Shown here: positions 4,941-36,025 of the stretch, piece after piece | Layout of the letters: each line of letters begins with the position of its first letter | Numbering within the stretch: the stretch's first letter is position 1 | NCBI RefSeq assembly: GCF_024626475.1 | Contig: NZ_JANKHH010000004.1 | Location: forward strand, 124,001 to 188,000 | DNA length: 64,000 nucleotides | Source of the DNA: Parerythrobacter lacustris | GTDB lineage: Bacteria; Pseudomonadota; Alphaproteobacteria; Sphingomonadales; Sphingomonadaceae | Reading direction: 5' to 3' | The notes under the pieces: model-generated | Told to the model about the DNA's origin: nothing | The model's database searches: none | The model's input: only the letters and a program-made list of their open reading frames with translations | Position numbers and translations under genes: made by a program

Positions 4941-5479
4941 ACGAGACCCTTCCGACCGCTCAGGCCGGAGACGTGCGCCAGCCCGATGAGGATTATTTCC
5001 GCGCGCTGCAGATCGAGGTGAACGACAAGGGCTTCCTCGTCACCAGCACCGAGGACCTGTTCCAGTGGGCGCGGACGGGCAGCCTGTGGTGGATGACCTT
5101 CGGCCTTGCGTGCTGTGCGGTCGAGATGATCCACGTCAACATGCCGCGCTACGATATGGAGCGGTTCGGAGTCGCCCCGCGCGCCAGCCCGCGCCAGTCC
5201 GATGTGATGATCGTCGCCGGCACGCTGTGCAACAAGATGGCCCCGGCGCTGCGCAAGGTCTACGACCAGATGTCGGACCCGAAATATGTTATCAGCATGG
5301 GCAGCTGCGCCAATGGCGGCGGCTATTACCACTACAGCTACAGCGTGGTGCGCGGCTGCGACCGGATCGTGCCGGTCGATATCTATATCCCCGGCTGCCC
5401 CCCGACCGCCGAGGCGCTGCTTTACGGCGTGATGCAGTTGCAGCGCAAGATCCGCCGCAGCGGGACGATCGCGCGGTGA
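4931..5479 (+). CDS. nuoB: NADH-quinone oxidoreductase subunit B
   Basis: 182 residues. It is the peripheral-arm subunit holding terminal cluster N2, which passes electrons to quinone. The four N2 ligands are visible: the adjacent Cys61-Cys62 (LACCAVEM), Cys126 (GSCANGGG) and Cys156 (PGCPPTAE). I chose the ATG at 4931, which overlaps the end of nuoA; the open frame extends further upstream but only inside nuoA. Its stop overlaps the GTG of nuoC (GTGA). Confidence 0.97.
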
Positions 5480-26646: not shown

Positions 26647-29262
26647 CTACTCGCGCAGCCGCTCGATCGCTTGCGCTAACGCGACATAGAGCTTGCCCAT
26701 ATCCGAACTGAGCAGGGTGACGCCAAGCGCATTGCCATCGCGGGTCGACAGCATGGTGCGCAGCATCGCCTCGAAATCGTGGATGTAGCGGCTGACATTC
26801 TCGCGGAAGTCCGGATCGAGGTCGTAGGCCTCGGCGATTTCGCGCGCCTCGGTGTTGTCGAGCAATCGGACCGCGCGGCGGGTGAAGATGCCCCGATCGC
26901 CGCGCAGGTAGGAAGCCCAGGCCGTGTCGCTGACGTCGCTCGACAAGGCCTTGGCAATATCGATCGAGTTCGAATTGAGCGCTTCGGTGATCAGCGCAAC
27001 GCGGCGCGCGAAATCGTTGCCGACCTGCTCCTCCGCCAGCTCGCGCGCACGGGCAACGCGGGTCTCGAGATTGCCCGCCAGCTCGTTCACTTTCGCTAGC
27101 TGGTCGCGCAACTGGACGGTTACCTCGCGCCCCGTACCCGCTGCCCGGTCGGCAGCCTCCTCGATCTTGGCAATCGAACTGGCCACGCCGGTATCGACCG
27201 CTTGCTCGACGCTCGCCACCGTGCGCGAGCTCACCGCTTCGGCCAGTGCTGTGAGCCGCTCGGTCATGACCAGTTCGAGCTTGTCCGGCGCGCTGCGGGC
27301 GGCATCTTCGAGCGCGGCGATTGCGTCGGAAAGGGCAGTTTTCGACTGCTCGCTCAGCGCATCGCTTTGATCGGCAAGTTCGGACAGGCCGTGCCGCAGT
27401 TGGGCAATCCGACGTTCCTGGTTATCATGCGACTCGAACAGGCGATGCTGCAATCCGTCGAGATCCTTGATCGCCTCGCGGCTCGCATCTCTTGCCGTGA
27501 TTACATAGGACGAGAGGTCCTCTCCCTTGCGGCCTGCTTCATTGATGACCGTCTGGAGCTCGCCCGTCTTGATCCGCACGGCCTCGAGCCGTTGCTCTGC
27601 GTCGGCCAAGGCACCTGGCAGCACGGCGTTGGTGTGCTGGGAACTTGCCTGGATCAGCTCCAGCAGCCGGACGCTCGCATCGGTAAGGTCGGCAACCGCC
27701 TTGTCCGCGCCAAGCAGCAGTGTCTGGCTCTCGGCAAGGCGAGCGGTCAACTGCGTGACATTGCCATCGATACTGTCCTGAGTCGCCTGCCCCTTTGCCG
27801 AAATGTCTTCCAGCGTTATCCGCAAGCTGTCGATCCTTGCCGCCAACGCTTCGCTGCGCTCGGCAACCGATTCGGAAAGCGAAAGCTGGGCTTGCTGCCG
27901 CTCTGTCATCGCCGCGTCGAGCGTGCTTAACCGTTGCTCAAGGCGGACGATCGAGGCTTCCTCTTCGCTAGCGAGCGCAGCCTGCCGCTGACGCAACTTC
28001 TCGACCAGCATCTCATCGCGCGCCGCGATATTGGCATCGACCGCTTCAGCCTCTTGCCGCAGTGCATCGAGCTTGCGATTGGCAGATTCGAGTGCCTGTT
28101 CGTCGATCCGCTGGATCTCGCCCACGGCCTCGCGCAACTGGGTATCGAGCTGCCCGATCCGCGCGTGCCAGCGGCCAAGGGCATCCTCTTCACTCGAACT
28201 GATCGACTGGCCGATGGTCTGTGCTTCCTCGCGGAGCGCGAGCAGACGCGCACGCAGTGATCGCAGCGCCTCCTCTTCCTCGCTCTCGAGCGAAGCCCGG
28301 CTGCCGGCGAACTCATCGGCCAATGCGTCGGCGCGCCGCCGGATCGCGGCGAGCGCATCGACCTCGCGATTGTCGAGCTCGGTGCGGAACTCCTCGCTCC
28401 GCTCCCTCAGTGCTGCGAAGCGCCGATCCACGATCACCTCGATCTCGGATGTCTGGTGCTCGAACGACGCCAAGGCTTCACCGATACGCGCCTGAAGCGA
28501 GCCGACCTGTTGTTCGCTCGCTCTGCCAAATGCATTCAGGCGATCGAATCCAGCGACAAGTTCAGCGACCTGCCCATGTGCGGTTCGGCCGGCGGTGCCG
28601 ATGTGGTTGGACACATCGCGCGCCGAATTGGCGATGACCGGCAAATCGTCCCGCAGGCGGTTCATGTTCTCCAGCGCGGTGTTCGAGACCTCGGCGATGA
28701 GTTCTATCTGGTGGCTGTTCTCCATCACCAGAGCCTGGAGGGCTTCGGCATTGGTGGACAATCGCTCGCTCGCGCGGCGTCCCAGGGACTCCAGCTCGCG
28801 CGATTGCGAGGCAAGGAATTCGCGCGCCAGGCTGAGTTCGCGATTGACCAACGACAGCCGCGTCTCGAGCTCGACCGACTTGAGCGACAGGCTTTCGGAC
28901 ACCTGCCCGAACCGGATTGCTTCACGGTGGCTGTTGCGGGTCGCCAGAAGGCACAACGATACCACCAGCAGCACCGGGACCGACCAGGCCACGATCCAGC
29001 CGCTCCATTGGTCCGGTGTACCACCGGCCATCATCGCGCCTCGGTTCACCCAGCCGAAAAACGCGGTCCACCCTGAGATCGCGAGGACCGCCAGCGACGG
29101 TACGATCCAGCGCGAGGCTGGAGGGCGGTAACCCTCCTCGGGCTCCCTTTCCTCGTAAACGTCCTCAGCGGCAGATTCCTGCGCCTGAGCAACTTCCGCC
29201 TTGGCAACGTCAAGCGCCGCATCTTCGGGGCCAATGGCCCTGATGTTCGATCCCCCGGTCAT
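26647..29262 (-). CDS. Large membrane-anchored coiled-coil protein
   Basis: 871 residues. An acidic N-terminus (1-50) is followed by two membrane helices (51-72 and 88-108) and then some 630 residues of nearly continuous heptad-type helix (about 118-745) with many Glu, Arg, Gln and Ala, rich in repeated LEARLS/ALREEAE-like patterns. The last 125 residues (WASYLRGDRGIFTRRAVRLLDN and on) are more globular and are probably the conserved functional domain. The topology predicts a long rod in the cytoplasm tethered to the inner membrane, as in envelope-spanning scaffolds or cell-division/polarity organisers. I do not recognise a named family. It is divergent from the HPt-like gene across 70 nt holding a perfect inverted repeat. 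Confidence 0.8.
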   Translation of the reverse strand: MTGGSNIRAIGPEDAALDVAKAEVAQAQESAAEDVYEEREPEEGYRPPASRWIVPSLAVLAISGWTAFFGWVNRGAMMAGGTPDQWSGWIVAWSVPVLLVVSLCLLATRNSHREAIRFGQVSESLSLKSVELETRLSLVNRELSLAREFLASQSRELESLGRRASERLSTNAEALQALVMENSHQIELIAEVSNTALENMNRLRDDLPVIANSARDVSNHIGTAGRTAHGQVAELVAGFDRLNAFGRASEQQVGSLQARIGEALASFEHQTSEIEVIVDRRFAALRERSEEFRTELDNREVDALAAIRRRADALADEFAGSRASLESEEEEALRSLRARLLALREEAQTIGQSISSSEEDALGRWHARIGQLDTQLREAVGEIQRIDEQALESANRKLDALRQEAEAVDANIAARDEMLVEKLRQRQAALASEEEASIVRLEQRLSTLDAAMTERQQAQLSLSESVAERSEALAARIDSLRITLEDISAKGQATQDSIDGNVTQLTARLAESQTLLLGADKAVADLTDASVRLLELIQASSQHTNAVLPGALADAEQRLEAVRIKTGELQTVINEAGRKGEDLSSYVITARDASREAIKDLDGLQHRLFESHDNQERRIAQLRHGLSELADQSDALSEQSKTALSDAIAALEDAARSAPDKLELVMTERLTALAEAVSSRTVASVEQAVDTGVASSIAKIEEAADRAAGTGREVTVQLRDQLAKVNELAGNLETRVARARELAEEQVGNDFARRVALITEALNSNSIDIAKALSSDVSDTAWASYLRGDRGIFTRRAVRLLDNTEAREIAEAYDLDPDFRENVSRYIHDFEAMLRTMLSTRDGNALGVTLLSSDMGKLYVALAQAIERLRE

Positions 29263-29289: not shown

Positions 29290-29309
29290 GGTTAAACCCC
29301 GGCTTAACC
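29290..29309. promoter_or_regulatory. Inverted repeat GGTTAA-N8-TTAACC, possible operator
   Basis: Perfect 6-nt arms with an 8-nt spacer lie midway between the divergent coiled-coil and HPt-like genes. The core TTAA-N8-TTAA is close to the CtrA cell-cycle regulator site (TTAA-N7-TTAA) but one base too wide. It may be an operator for both genes; the regulator is unknown. Confidence 0.4.
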
Positions 29310-29332: not shown

Positions 29333-29641
29333 ATGGCTTTCGAAAGCGGCAATTTCGATGCGACACTCGCGGCAGCGGCAGGCGAAGACCCTGCGCTGCT
29401 GGCCGAATTGCGCGTCGCATTCGCGGAGAGTGTCGCGCGTCAGATCGACCTGCTCAAGCGGTCGCGGTGCGATGCTAACTGGGAACTGGCTGCGCAGCGC
29501 CTGAAGGGCGTGGCCGCCAGCTTCCACGCCGACTCGCTGATCGTCCTGGCGCAAGAGGCGGTGGACGCTGCCCCCGGAGAGCCCACTGTCGTCCGCCGGA
29601 TCGAGGCATTCCATCGCGAATTCGTGGGCGGTAGCGACTGA
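29333..29641 (+). CDS. HPt-like protein lacking the phosphorylatable His
   Basis: 102 residues from the ATG at 29333; the longer frame starting at 29201 runs into the divergent gene. It is all-helical, and residues 49-75 (NWELAAQRLKGVAASFHADSL) match the histidine phosphotransfer pattern A-H-x-L-K-G-x-A-x-x-x-x-A-x-x-L. The phosphate-accepting His is replaced by Gln55 (codon CAG). The nearest histidine (His65) is ten residues on, where HPt domains normally have Gly. It may bind partners without relaying phosphate. A membrane gene follows after 71 nt. Confidence 0.65.
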   Translation: MAFESGNFDATLAAAAGEDPALLAELRVAFAESVARQIDLLKRSRCDANWELAAQRLKGVAASFHADSLIVLAQEAVDAAPGEPTVVRRIEAFHREFVGGSD

Positions 29642-30912: not shown

Positions 30913-30949
30913 CTATGGCTGATTAAGGGTGACAATCGAAGAGGAAGCA

Positions 30950-31897
30950 ATGCACCCACCGTCCGACAGCCCCGTGGAGATGATCCTGCGCGATGAACTC
31001 GCGCATGGAGACGGTGTGCTGCAGTCGCTCGCACCGATCCTCGGGCATCTGGTAGCGACCGCGGGGAACCCCCTGTTCAACGATCAGGTGGTCGCTTCCA
31101 TTCGCGGGCGTGCCGCCGATGTTGCGCGCCAGCTATTGCGCGAGCAAGCTGCCGTTGCCGGTCTGGGCGATCCTGATGGCTTTGCCGATGCGGGTGTCGT
31201 CGAGCTGGCCGATGCCCTGATGAATCAGCAGGGTTTCCTCGTCCATTGTCACGCGCTGACGATCGAAGCACAGACGGCCGAGGCACTGCGCAGCCGCTCG
31301 GGGATCGATCCCGTCGTCTCGCCGATGCTTCAATCGCTGATCGCATCGAAGAGCCCGGAAATTGCTGGCGGTGCGATGGCGATCCTTGCGGCGCAGGCAC
31401 GCTTCTTCCAGCAGCATGCACGGATGGAGCTGCCGCTTCGCGAATTGCCGGGCGCGATTTTCGAGCAGGTCCTGCACACTTGGCGCAACTTCGCCGGTTC
31501 CGACGCCTCGACAATCACGGCACAGGCCGAAGGGACGCTGCGAAGCACTTTCGATGAGGGGATGAGCCGGATCGGTCTGCTCAACCGGATGATCTCGGCA
31601 CTCGGCAAGGATGCCCGACCTGCCCTTGCGGTAAGCAACGGTGGCGTTTCGCTTTTCACATCCGCCCTCGCGCATATTTCCGACCAAGCACGCGATACCA
31701 TCGTCGTCGCGACAAGCGAGCAGTTGGTCGGAAGGCTTGCGCTCTCGTTGCGCGCTGCCGGGCTTGACGCGAGCGTAGTGGCGGAGCAGTTCGCCTATTT
31801 CCATCCGGACATCGATTTGCCGGAAGGGTTCGAGGCACTACGCCAGGACCGGGCGCAGGAGCTCCTGCAGCACCGGAAAGCCGGCGATGCGGACTGA
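30950..31897 (+). CDS. Helical cytoplasmic protein of unknown function
   Basis: 315 residues from the ATG at 30950, preferred because AGAGGA precedes it; a GTG at 30929 would add 7 residues but has no spaced SD. The protein is almost wholly alpha-helical without signal peptide or membrane segment, with an Ala/Leu-rich repeat-like middle (LIASKSPEIAGGAMAILAAQARFFQ). I do not recognise the family; a HEAT-like or DUF2336-like fold is possible. It lies 37 nt after the membrane protein and 3 nt before the kinase-like gene, so the three are very likely one transcript. Confidence 0.65.
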   Translation: MHPPSDSPVEMILRDELAHGDGVLQSLAPILGHLVATAGNPLFNDQVVASIRGRAADVARQLLREQAAVAGLGDPDGFADAGVVELADALMNQQGFLVHCHALTIEAQTAEALRSRSGIDPVVSPMLQSLIASKSPEIAGGAMAILAAQARFFQQHARMELPLRELPGAIFEQVLHTWRNFAGSDASTITAQAEGTLRSTFDEGMSRIGLLNRMISALGKDARPALAVSNGGVSLFTSALAHISDQARDTIVVATSEQLVGRLALSLRAAGLDASVVAEQFAYFHPDIDLPEGFEALRQDRAQELLQHRKAGDAD

Positions 31898-31900
31898 TCG

Positions 31901-33271
31901 ATGGCACGGCTGACCGGAACTTTCCTGGCGCGCGCGCTGCTGGATGGAGAAGCAAATCTTGTCGAGGCGCAGGAGCCGCTCGCTTCGCTCCAGCTGCGTT
32001 GCGGCGGACTATTGCCCGGACCGGTCGCAATCCCCGACATTCGTGAGGCCGTGATCCAGTGCCTAGCCAACCGTCGCTCCGTGTCGCGCGGATTCCGCGC
32101 GTTCGATGGCGATGAACGGATCGAAGGCTGGATCGAGCTGGTCCCGGACGACAAGGCGGGCGGGTGTTTCCTCGGAGTGTCGGACTGGCAGGCAACGCCC
32201 TACGAGACGGAAACCGATCCGGAATACGAACAGCGACGCCTGGATGTCGATCGAACGGTTGCCGAAATCGTTGCGCGTCTGGACCCTTCGCAGGCCATAC
32301 TGGCCGTGGATGGTCAGGCGGCAGACGTGGTGGATGCGGTTCAGGCAATGCGGTCGGCTGTGGGGAGACCGTGGACGGACTACGTCGTCTTCCCGGGCGA
32401 TGGCCATCATCAGCCCTTGCATTGGCGGCTTCTGGATGGCTCCCTGTGCAAGATTGCCGGGTCAGAACGTAGCTGGTCGGTCCATCTCGTCCCGCTCGGG
32501 ACTGCTCGGGACGGCAGGGACGGATTCGAGCTGTACCTCATTCCCGACCGGATATTGTCACCCGTCGCGAGCGAACCGGCCGCAAAGGCAAAGGGAATCA
32601 CCCAATCGATCGGCCGGGAACTGGCTCCGGTGCTGCGCCAGCCGATCGCCCGGATCATTGCCAATGCCGAGACGATCCGCAACAAGATGGCCGGGCCCCT
32701 GGCGGAAGAGTACAGCGCCTACGCCGCCGACATCACCAGCGCGGGGCAGCACCTGCTGTCGCTGATCGAAGACCTGTCTGACCTCGAGGTGGTAGAAGCG
32801 GACGACTTCTCGACTGCGCCCGACCAGATCGACCTTGGCGACGTGGCACGGCGGGCTGCGGGAATCCTGTCGGTCCGGGCACAGGAAAAATCGATCGAGA
32901 TTGCGTGCCCGGAGATGACCCAGCGCGTCGCGGCAATTGCCGAGTTTCGCCGGGTGTTGCAGATCCTGCTCAACTTGATGGCCAACGCAATCCGCTATTC
33001 GCCCGAGAACTCAACAGTGACGGTGACCGTAGGTGCAACCGAACTCAGCGCGCGGCTCGTTGTGTCCGATGAGGGGCCGGGGCTGGACGAGGCGCAGCAG
33101 GCAGTGGTGTTCGAAAAGTTCGAACGCCTCGGCCGCAGCGGCGACGGCGGATCAGGCCTCGGCCTTTACATCTCTCGCCGCATCGCGCGTGCGATGGGCG
33201 GTGAATTGTCGGTCGAAAGCGTTCCGGGGCAGGGCGCGCAGTTTATCCTCGACCTGCCGCCGGACCGGTAG
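31901..33271 (+). CDS. Histidine-kinase-like protein with Pro at the H-box
   Basis: 456 residues, no membrane segment. Residues 1-225 are a sensory region of unknown type, with a PAS-like stretch at about 60-95. Residues 236-300 match the dimerisation/phosphotransfer domain: helix 1 LAPVLRQPIARIIANAETI aligns with SHELRTPLNAIIGFAE, but the phosphorylated His is Pro243 (codon CCG); helix 2 is ITSAGQHLLSLIEDLSDL. The ATPase domain looks complete: N-box NLMANAIRYSPE, G1 DEGPGLDE, F-box VFEKFERLG, G2 GGSGLGLYISRR. It should therefore bind ATP but cannot autophosphorylate at the usual site. DivL of Caulobacter is a known kinase with Tyr at this position. Convergent with gltA, 7 nt apart. Confidence 0.8.
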   Translation: MARLTGTFLARALLDGEANLVEAQEPLASLQLRCGGLLPGPVAIPDIREAVIQCLANRRSVSRGFRAFDGDERIEGWIELVPDDKAGGCFLGVSDWQATPYETETDPEYEQRRLDVDRTVAEIVARLDPSQAILAVDGQAADVVDAVQAMRSAVGRPWTDYVVFPGDGHHQPLHWRLLDGSLCKIAGSERSWSVHLVPLGTARDGRDGFELYLIPDRILSPVASEPAAKAKGITQSIGRELAPVLRQPIARIIANAETIRNKMAGPLAEEYSAYAADITSAGQHLLSLIEDLSDLEVVEADDFSTAPDQIDLGDVARRAAGILSVRAQEKSIEIACPEMTQRVAAIAEFRRVLQILLNLMANAIRYSPENSTVTVTVGATELSARLVVSDEGPGLDEAQQAVVFEKFERLGRSGDGGSGLGLYISRRIARAMGGELSVESVPGQGAQFILDLPPDR

Positions 33272-33278
33272 CCACCCT

Positions 33279-34565
33279 TCAGCGCTGCTCGACCGGCACG
33301 TAATCCCGTTCGGCCGGGCCGGTGTAAAGCTGGCGCGGACGGCCGATCACCTGGCCTGGATCGGAAATCATCTCGTTCCACTGCGCGACCCAGCCGACGG
33401 TGCGGGCGAGCGCGAAGAGCGCGGTGAACATCGTCGTCGGGAAGCCGATCGCCGAGAGGATCACGCCGGAGTAGAAGTCCACGTTGGGGAACAGCTTCTT
33501 CTCGCGGAAGTAATCGTCGCTGAGCGCCATTTCCTCGAGCCGAAGAGCGGTCTCGAACACCGGATCGGTGACCTTGAGCGCGTCGAACACTTCGCGCACG
33601 GTTTTCTGCATCACCGTCGCGCGCGGATCGTAGTTCTTGTACACGCGGTGGCCGAAACCCATCAGGCGGAACGGGTCGTTCTTGTCCTTCGCGCGCTCGA
33701 TGTAATGCGGGATGCGATCGGGCGTGCCGATTTCGCGCAGCATGTTGAGCGCGGCCTCGTTCGCACCGCCGTGCGCCGGACCCCACAGGCAGGCAATACC
33801 CGCTGAGATACAGGCAAACGGGTTCGCACCGGATGAGCCGGCGAGCCGGACGGTGCTGGTGGAGGCGTTCTGTTCGTGATCGGCGTGGAGGATGAAGATA
33901 CGGTCGAGTGCTTTTTCGACCGCCGGGATCACCTCGTACTCCTCTGCCGGAACCCCGAAGGTCATGCGCAGGAAATTGCCGGTATAGCTCAGCGAGTTGA
34001 GCGGCTGCATGAAGGGCTGGCCGACCGAGTATTTATACGCCATCGCCGCGATCGTCGGCATCTTGGCGATCAGCCGGTGGCTGGAAATCTTGCGGTGGTG
34101 CGGGTCGGAAATGTCAGTGCTGTCATGGTAGAACGCCGACAGGGCACCGACCACGCCGCACATGATCGCCATCGGGTGGGCATCGCGGCGGAACCCGCGG
34201 TAGAAAGTCGCCAACTGCTCGTGCAGCATGGTGTGACGAGTGATGGTCATCTCGAAGTCGGACAATTCCTGCGCGCTCGGCAGTTCGCCGTTGAGCAGGA
34301 GGTAGGAGACTTCCATGAAACTGGAGTTTTCGGCCAGCTGCCCGATCGGGTAGCCCCTGTGCAGCAGCACGCCCTCGTCGCCATCGATATAGGTCAGTGC
34401 GCTTTCGCAGCTAGCGGTGGACTTGTAGCCCGGGTCGAAGGTGAAATGATCGGTCGCGCCGTAAAGCTTGCGGATGTCGATCACATCGGGGCCGACACTG
34501 CCTTCCAGGATCGGGAAGTCGTAGGTCTGGTCGCCAATCTCCAGCTTCGCCTGTTTGTCCGCCAA
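33279..34565 (-). CDS. gltA: Citrate synthase
   Basis: 428 residues of the hexameric type-II citrate synthase, condensing oxaloacetate and acetyl-CoA in the TCA cycle. Catalytic histidines are in [13 protein letters not shown] and [14 protein letters not shown], with the catalytic Asp further on near VDFYSG. I chose the TTG at 34565: AAGGAG lies 7 nt upstream, the length is then normal, and the 13 residues encoded before it are basic and low-complexity. It is downstream of gltX on the same strand with a 35 nt gap. Confidence 0.95.
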
Positions 34566-34600
34566 TGTTTTTCTCCTTCGTCCAGTGTTCCCGCACCTGC

Positions 34601-36025
34601 TCAAGCGGCTTGCGCGTCGATCCGCGCCAGCGACTCCTCCCGACCGAGCAGGACCAGTACATCGAAAATGCCGGGGCTGGTTGTTGTCCCCGTCAGCGCA
34701 GCGCGCAGCGGCTGCGCCAGTTTGCCAAGACCCAATTGAAGCTCCTCGGCGAGCGCCTTCGTAGTGGCTTCGAGTGCTTCCATTGTCCAGTCATTTTCCG
34801 CCGCGAGCCGCTGCGAGACGAGGGTGAGGCGCTGTCGCGATTCGTCGTCCATCAGGGCAGCTGCCTTCGCGTCCAGATCGAACGGACGCTGCTTGAACAG
34901 GAAAGCCGCACCGGCGGCGAGTTCGTGCGTGTCCTTCGCCCTCACCTTGATGACCGGCATGGCGCGGGCGAGCAGGTCGAGATCGACTGCGCATTCGATT
35001 TCCGGCGCGACCAGCTGCGCCAACCGCGTGTCGTCCGCTTCGCGAATATGGTGTGCATTGAGGTTCAGCAGCTTCTTGAGGTCGAAGCGTGAGGGGCTCT
35101 TGCCGACGGCATCGATATCGAACAGCGCCACCGCTTCGTCACGCGTGAACTCTTCCTTGTCGCCGTGGCCCCAGCCGAGCCGGATCAGGTAGTTGAACAA
35201 GGCTTCGGGCAGTACGCCCAGCTCATCGCGATAGGCTTCGACCCCAACGGCGCCGTGGCGCTTGGACAATTTGGCACCGTCCTGCCCGTGGATCAGTGGA
35301 ACATGCGCATAGACCGGCTCGGGCCAGCCGCCCTCGATCGAATCCATCGCCTTGATGATCGGCAGCTGGCGGAAAGCGTTGTTGAGATGGTCGTCACCGC
35401 GAATGATGTGGGTGCAGCCCATATCGTGGTCGTCGACCACCACCGCCAGCATATAGGTGGGGGTGCCGTCGGCCCGCAGCAGGACATAGTCGTCGAGTTC
35501 GGCATTCGCGACGCGGACCTTGCCTTGCACCGCATCGTCGATGACCGTTTCACCTTCGATCGGGGTTTTCAGGCGAACGACAAAGGGAGTGCCGGCAGGA
35601 GCTTCGGCCGGGTCGCGGTCGCGCCAGCGGCCGTCGTACCGTAGGGGCTGCCGGTTGGCGCGCTGTTCGGTGCGCATCGCTTCCAGTTCATCGGGCGTTG
35701 CGAAGCACTTGTAGGCATGACCCGCTTCGAGCAGTTGGAGCGCGACTTCGCGGTGCCGGTCGGCGCGCTGCGACTGGAACACCGGCGGTTCGTCATAGTC
35801 GAGACCCAGCCAGTCGAGCCCTTCGATGATCTTGTCGATCGCATCCTGCGTCGAGCGCTTCAGATCGGTGTCCTCGATCCTGAGCAGTGCCTTGCCGCCA
35901 TGATGGCGGGCAAACAGCCAGTTGAACAGCGCGGTACGGGCACCGCCGAGATGCAGATATCCGGTCGGCGAAGGGGCGAAGCGCGTGACCACTTTTCCGC
36001 GATCCTGTCCGCTATCGCTTGCCAT
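34601..36025 (-). CDS. gltX: Glutamate--tRNA ligase
   Basis: 474 residues, a class I aminoacyl-tRNA synthetase charging tRNA-Glu. The HIGH-type motif is in [16 protein letters not shown] (16-31) and the KMSKS-type motif is KLSKRHG. The ATG at 36025 starts just before the conserved N-terminus; the open frame continues about 150 codons upstream over the divergent comEC gene and is not real. Start-to-start distance to comEC is 28 nt, so the promoters overlap both genes' leaders. Confidence 0.95.

Follow-up and report, generated by a model that had tools for sequence, protein, structure and literature searches.

A conserved bacterial HPt-like protein without the phospho-accepting histidine, encoded with a pseudo-kinase in Parerythrobacter lacustris and its relatives

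Signalling proteins that have the fold of a phosphorelay component and lack its phosphorylatable His have been described in plants and in bacteria. In Caulobacter, DivL carries a Tyr in place of the His, senses DivK-P by binding, and its role needs no kinase activity, according to the available part of PMC4211667. For bacterial Hpt domains in general, the accessible text of PMC12632262 gives missing His sites in 0.9% of the domains (90 of 10,312). The papers on pseudo-HPts among the literature matches listed are on plants, and no paper on the gene or the module described below was found among them. The gene lies in a stretch of 64,000 nucleotides from Parerythrobacter lacustris, which is referred to here as the window, and its product, which lacks the phospho-accepting His of histidine phosphotransfer (HPt) proteins, is called the pseudo-HPt.

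The pseudo-HPt gene and its neighbours

The features of the locus are collected in Table 1. An earlier note made from the DNA sequence had described the product as HPt-like with Gln in place of the phosphate-accepting His, and both parts of this description hold. When 67 His-less family sequences were aligned by hhalign to 15 His-bearing HPts, the probability was 98.3 with an E-value of 2.1e-14 and Gln55, read from a CAG codon, fell on the His, so that the HxLKG frame of the window protein has no phospho-accepting His. A profile of the same 15 His-bearing HPts finds the window gene in its own genome with an E-value of 1.3e-8, and on these two results a chance LKG motif was rejected. The structure prediction that the note had called for was carried out from the 67 sequences and gave an AF2 model (pLDDT 90.2) with five helices, namely, 6-16, 20-43, 47-63, 67-78, and 84-100, that contains the four-helix HPt bundle. 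In VIA-align the top 16 rows were all HPts, led by HptB (7c1i) with Z 12.7 and 2.2 A for 99 residues, and unrelated bundles came next at Z of about 10; for helical bundles, a Z below about 13 may reflect a widespread arrangement. None of the Foldseek E-values for the model was significant (best 0.37). Since unrelated bundles score at Z of about 10 and the Foldseek values are not significant, the fold by itself is supportive and not decisive, and it is the profile homology together with the shared locus described below that points to common descent with HPts. The only PDB sequence match of the family profile is Caulobacter ShpA (2ooc, E 0.023), which is also among the Foldseek matches.

Table 1. 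Features of the locus, with positions in the window
Feature	Position	Strand	Description
TipN-like gene (P0005)	26647..29262	-	871 aa; two N-terminal hydrophobic segments (52-72, 86-110); transcribed away from the HPt gene, 70 bp apart
Intergenic box TAAACCCCGGCTTAAC	29293..29308	+	between the TipN-like and HPt genes; TAAACCCNNNNTTAAC has its only exact genome match here
Pseudo-HPt gene (P0001)	29333..29641	+	102 aa; ATG start; contains AAQRLKGVAASF with Gln55
Gln55 codon, CAG	29495..29497	+	position of the HPt phospho-accepting His; alignment and codon read
P4	29713..30912	+	399 aa; C-terminal hydrophobic stretches; related to a CDP-alcohol phosphatidyltransferase fusion but diverged from it
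P3, DUF2336 family	30929..31897	+	322 aa; GTG start; recognised as DUF2336 through orthologues only
Pseudo-histidine kinase (P0002)	31901..33271	+	456 aa; HisKA (30.1 bits) and HATPase_c (90.6 bits)
Pro243 codon, CCG	32627..32629	+	kinase H-box His position; Pfam alignment and codon read

In Pfam, Hpt (PF01627) is the second match of the window protein by E-value (E 0.081), and its score of 13.6 bits lies below the gathering cut-off of 24.6 bits. All ten of ten further family members also fall below the cut-off, yet Hpt is the leading Pfam match in seven of them. Among the His-less members scored, 12 of 13 are below the cut-off (the window included), and of the 12 others L165 is the sole orthologue above it (25.9 bits). 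Since 12 of these 13 fall below the cut-off, domain counts like the one cited above may miss this pseudo-HPt family.

The kinase gene lies three genes downstream of the pseudo-HPt gene on the same strand. The Pfam alignment of P0002 starts at residue 245, which corresponds to HisKA position 13, and Pro243, two residues earlier, matches what we take to be the consensus His position of the Pfam model. No hydrophobic stretch was found in P0002 by a simple hydropathy scan. In the kinases encoded beside the best 80 of at least 298 pseudo-HPt relatives, the H-box residue is Pro in 71, Thr in one, Leu in one, unread in one, and His in none, and the N-box Asn is retained in 73 of the 73 readable orthologues from these loci. 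Neither P0002 nor the 73 readable orthologues have the DivL-type Tyr at this site. An H-box His was seen in none of the 73, nor in any other kinase match listed. Thus, the note was right that a kinase without its His belongs to the same gene group. Its further claim that both steps of a phosphorelay lost their chemistry together is unsupported because no His-bearing kinase orthologue was found, every readable one being already His-less; the canonical His-bearing HPts at the equivalent locus share it with a pseudo-receiver and a second HPt and no such kinase.

The divergent 871-aa gene is provisionally called TipN-like because its topology fits that of TipN. Its product matches no NCBIfam family at E up to 1 and scores above the cut-off for none in Pfam, and relatives of it are present in 182 of the 196 genomes of the order. 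A few kb from this gene, an ORF at 33279-34604 on the minus strand reads as citrate synthase by eye; the title of one paper ties citrate synthase to Caulobacter cell-cycle control, and the nearness here is probably a coincidence. P4 of the window has no Pfam match, and the P4-like neighbour in the relative L054 scores as a CDP-alcohol phosphatidyltransferase (36.2 bits, Pfam). P4 may be another enzyme turned non-catalytic; a strict CDP-alcohol motif matched none of 106 rows (the window and 105 others), missing even the Pfam-recognised L054, and so is no evidence on the inactivity of P4.

The intergenic box, of the form TAAACCCCG-N2-TTAAC, is conserved in the family and stands about 28 bp ahead of the start codon of the HPt gene. 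We take it to resemble a CtrA site. In 80 upstream regions, from the window and 79 loci (L086 was left out as its upstream DNA is too short), TAAA-N7-TTAAC is present in 50, where 0.004 would be expected for each 120 bp of these loci, and TTAAC in 76, where 0.023 would be expected; the presence of TTAA in all 80 is partly by construction, the site having been chosen by best fit. Genome-wide, the box pattern has one exact match and three with one mismatch, and the reversed control has three. Upstream of His-type HPt genes no such box was seen, and an ancestral origin of the box is therefore not supported.

Residue 55 and gene linkage in the relatives

A single-sequence search over 148 genomes, the window's own included, gave 54 with a match to the pseudo-HPt. 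Residue 55 in these 54 is Leu in 15, Met in 12, Gln in 11, Trp in eight, His in three (L042, L054, and L055), and another residue in five. A scan of genome contigs confirmed at least 298 relatives, from which the 80 closest among the matches listed were kept; these are from records titled Erythrobacter, Novosphingobium, Pontixanthobacter, Qipengyuania, Citromicrobium, Sphingobium, and others. In these best 80 of at least 298, with the window's own Gln left out, residue 55 is Met in 45, Leu in 16, Gln in nine, Trp in three, Glu in two, Ala, Gly, Thr, Asp, and Tyr in one each, and His in none. The conservation check proposed with the note thus shows that His is not the usual residue at this position; Gln itself is not conserved either, Met and Leu being commoner. 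That Gln is conserved as chemistry was rejected because the position is variable, and a recent loss in one strain was rejected because the His is missing throughout the closest orthologues listed and in 51 of the 54 relatives. Judged from these alignments, the loss of the His is a conserved trait of the family and not a one-off. One of the three exceptions, L042 (genome G035; HPt match 5010-5279, minus strand), has His55 within an otherwise pseudo-type protein that is nested in a His-less clade. Since a pseudo-kinase gene adjoins it, the His in G035 is either tolerated and retained or has been regained.

The gene order is nearly constant in the best 80 of at least 298 loci. The TipN-like gene is divergent upstream in 79, the one miss (L086) having only 89 bp of upstream DNA, and the pseudo-kinase gene follows downstream in 74; in the other six the available downstream DNA is only 0.3 to 1.8 kb long. 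P3 was found in 70, and P4 is missing in six that keep the HPt, P3, and the kinase. At the genome level (G000-G058), the kinase was matched at E <= 1.9e-58 in every HPt-positive genome but one (32 of 33), and that one is the His-bearing G007. Of the 26 HPt-negative genomes, four gave a kinase match at E <= 1e-56. The HPt search behind this count used a single sequence and missed the His-bearing HPt of G041, which a profile picked up afterwards. Outside the window's family, none of 39 genomes has a kinase match at E <= 1e-56 (best 4.6e-43). In G013, G043, and G045 the kinase gene is elsewhere in the genome, away from the HPt gene. Ten family loci without the HPt (L214 and L221-L229), which were chosen because the TipN-like gene was found and the HPt was not, have P4 in ten of ten and the kinase in nine of ten. 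Since these loci retain P4 and mostly the kinase, the module does not depend on the HPt everywhere, and taken together the linkage counts make the kinase the steadiest partner and the HPt a frequent one. L216 (G161) has a long TipN-like ORF and, next to it, a truncated HPt of about 40 matching residues, which may mark a recent loss of the gene.

Origin, divergence and selection

An order-level profile search of 196 genomes, which also finds weaker HPts, gave 36 matching genomes outside the family. From these 22 loci were taken and 20 were counted and, with the basal G041 (L208) of the window's own family, 21 loci were compared (L193-L212 and L232). L230, on a short contig with the His present and no TipN-like gene, and L231, where the match lies inside a large kinase ORF, were left out, while L209, on a 3.6-kb contig without a TipN-like gene, was kept; L213 and L215 are unrelated matches. 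An HPt with the His is present in 21 of the 21 loci and the TipN-like gene in 20, whereas P4, P3, or the pseudo-kinase was found in none of the 21. Instead, 20 of them (L193-L208, L210-L212, and L232) encode a CheY-like receiver whose motif, SNWxM, puts Asn at the site of the phospho-Asp, and 19 encode a second HPt (H-D-M/L-KGQGG), both having been located by motif anywhere in the 3.6- to 15-kb locus, with neighbouring ORFs read in a few. When the receiver of L195 (L195:6957-7508, minus strand) was aligned to CheY, the phospho-Asp was found to be Asn. Since this receiver with Asn for Asp shares its locus with a canonical HPt, active HPts may have been paired with a pseudo-receiver already at the ancestral stage. 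In the window genome no second HPt was found by a search that had no positive control, and the receiver of the ancestral locus gave only generic matches there (best 28.8 bits) and no close relative. The only Pfam-level Hpt domain in the window genome begins an ORF that reads as CheA by eye.

A quick tree with SH-aLRT support was made from 69 rows of the TipN-like tail. In it, a branch with a support of 98 separates the 20 His rows of the order-level loci from the rest, and three changes between His and non-His are needed. The HPt is absent in ten of the 69 rows, these rows being partly chosen, and the starred branches force at least four changes. Loci of mixed features are those of G086, G007, and G035. 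L054 has the His and a P4-like neighbour and no kinase in its 10 kb, and L055 has the His and neither a P4-like gene nor a kinase in its 10 kb; the tree does not clearly place these two at the base. At the level of the class, profile matches are mostly in large ORFs with few stand-alone HPts. In loci taken there with about 1.5 kb of flank, a TipN-like ORF is near the HPt in eight of 30 (L237, L239, L240, L243, L247, L255, L261, and L265, the last being of the window's own family), these TipN-like matches being weak (20-55 bits) and possibly in part a reflection of coiled-coil composition. In the seven that are outside the window's family the HPt has its His in all. The computed homology and gene order indicate that the pseudo-HPt descends from a canonical HPt encoded beside the TipN-like gene.

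What has changed in the protein was read from a column comparison of 103 pseudo-type sequences, the His-bearing L042 included, with 23 His-type sequences. Position 55 is His in 23 of 23 of the latter and Met in 46, Leu in 24, Gln in 11, and Trp in ten, among others, of the former. Arg62, in 16 of 23 His-type sequences, has become Ala in 95 of 103, and Gly65, in all 23, has become His in 72 and is still Gly in 23 of 103. Residues of the docking motif are retained in the pseudo-type (Lys58 in 83 and Gly59 in 97 of 103), and Trp50 and Arg56 are invariant in all 103. A new motif, R43-x-R-C-D-x-N49, has appeared, with R43 in 97, R45 in 97, C46 in 93, D47 in 98, and N49 in 94 of 103. These columns suggest that the former docking face has been partly retained, that the chemistry is gone, and that a new conserved stretch has been gained, which would fit a binding protein. 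The dN/dS ratio, calculated with no identity filter, has a median of 0.257 over the 454 pairs with dS < 1.2 and a maximum of 0.512 among 2543 defined pairs; 697 of 3240 pairs were undefined or saturated and were left out. With a filter for pairs more than 75% identical (48 pairs) the median was 0.146, but this filter biases the ratio downward and, therefore, the unfiltered run was used. The computed ratios indicate that the pseudo-HPt is under purifying selection.

Possible roles and comparison with described systems

We propose, with slightly better than even confidence, that the pseudo-HPt is a non-catalytic, HPt-fold adaptor for the co-encoded pseudo-kinase module. The protein has lost its His and probably works by binding partners: the four-helix bundle would be retained for protein-protein contact, and the former docking surface for a receiver or a kinase, with Met, Leu, or Trp usually at position 55, would now make a phosphate-independent contact. 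The site of action may be the cell pole marked by TipN. Since several lineages have lost the HPt and kept the rest, the pseudo-HPt would modulate the module and not found it. A wider reconstruction is tentative and less likely than not. Early in the sphingomonad family a polarity-linked phosphorelay locus may have been rebuilt into a binding-only module of a dead HPt, a dead kinase, and perhaps a CDP-alcohol transferase-like protein, the His of the HPt having been lost when the pseudo-receiver and the second HPt gave way to the pseudo-kinase cassette.

A rather unlikely alternative is that the protein is a putative decoy like plant AHP6, which would dock a receiver, for example a cell-cycle regulator, compete with phosphodonors, and damp another phosphorelay without contact with the pseudo-kinase. 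AHP6 lacks the His and inhibits cytokinin signalling, as stated in the available portion of PMC11903765, and the survival of Lys58 and Gly59 agrees with such docking, but position 55 and Arg62 of the former face are altered, the receiver of the ancestral locus has no close relative in the window genome, and the linked gene is that of a kinase and not of a receiver. It is very improbable that the protein is still a phosphotransfer protein through another residue, such as His65, ten residues on. Although most pseudo-type sequences have this His, 23 of 103 have Gly there, the residue follows the third helix (47-63) of the AF2 model, away from the docking position, and the alignment of the 54 relatives has no other conserved His column. 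We give as little credence to a decaying remnant that has no present function: the repeated loss of the gene within the family (partly chosen rows) and the fragment in G161 would agree with decay, but the low dN/dS ratios, the invariant Trp50 and Arg56, and the conserved upstream box argue against it. Finally, the reading that the protein has no kinship to HPts and is some other helical bundle in which LKG occurs by chance has hardly any probability. The Pfam scores below cut-off and the non-significant Foldseek values speak for it; against it stand the profile homology, the conserved location next to the gene that also flanks the canonical HPts, the score of L165, and the rank of Hpt as leading Pfam match in seven of ten further members.

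The family is conserved as a whole, its active ancestor can be traced, one partner gene accompanies it almost constantly, and some of the loci have mixed features (G086, G007, and G035); because of these, the role of an HPt that cannot carry phosphate is directly testable here. If a DivL-like reading of the module is true, it would be a sphingomonad polarity circuit on which there is no paper among the literature matches listed.

The closest counterparts of the pseudo-HPt are the stand-alone canonical HPts (PF01627) beside TipN-like genes in other families, with which it shares the fold, the motif frame, Trp50, and the divergent position. It differs from them in the replacement of the His by Met, Leu, Gln, or Trp, of Arg62 by Ala, and mostly of Gly65 by His, in the gain of the R-x-R-C-D-x-N motif, and in the replacement of the neighbouring genes. 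Caulobacter ShpA is likewise a single-domain HPt, and its structure is titled histidine phosphotransferase. P0002 resembles Caulobacter DivL in being a HisKA/HATPase protein with a residue other than His at the phosphosite; unlike DivL, which has a conserved Tyr and PAS domains, it carries Pro, and in a PDB search its match to a hybrid kinase (6qrj, 83.5 bits) scored above that to DivL (4q20, 64.9 bits). With AHP6 the pseudo-HPt shares an HPt fold without a phosphorylatable His (PMC11903765, in the part available), but AHP6 belongs to the plant cytokinin pathway, where an inhibitory role is reported for it, whereas the window protein is known from its sequence and a model. Pseudo-HPts as such are already known, as AHP6 illustrates, and the family of the window differs as a conserved bacterial variant that comes with a pseudo-kinase module.
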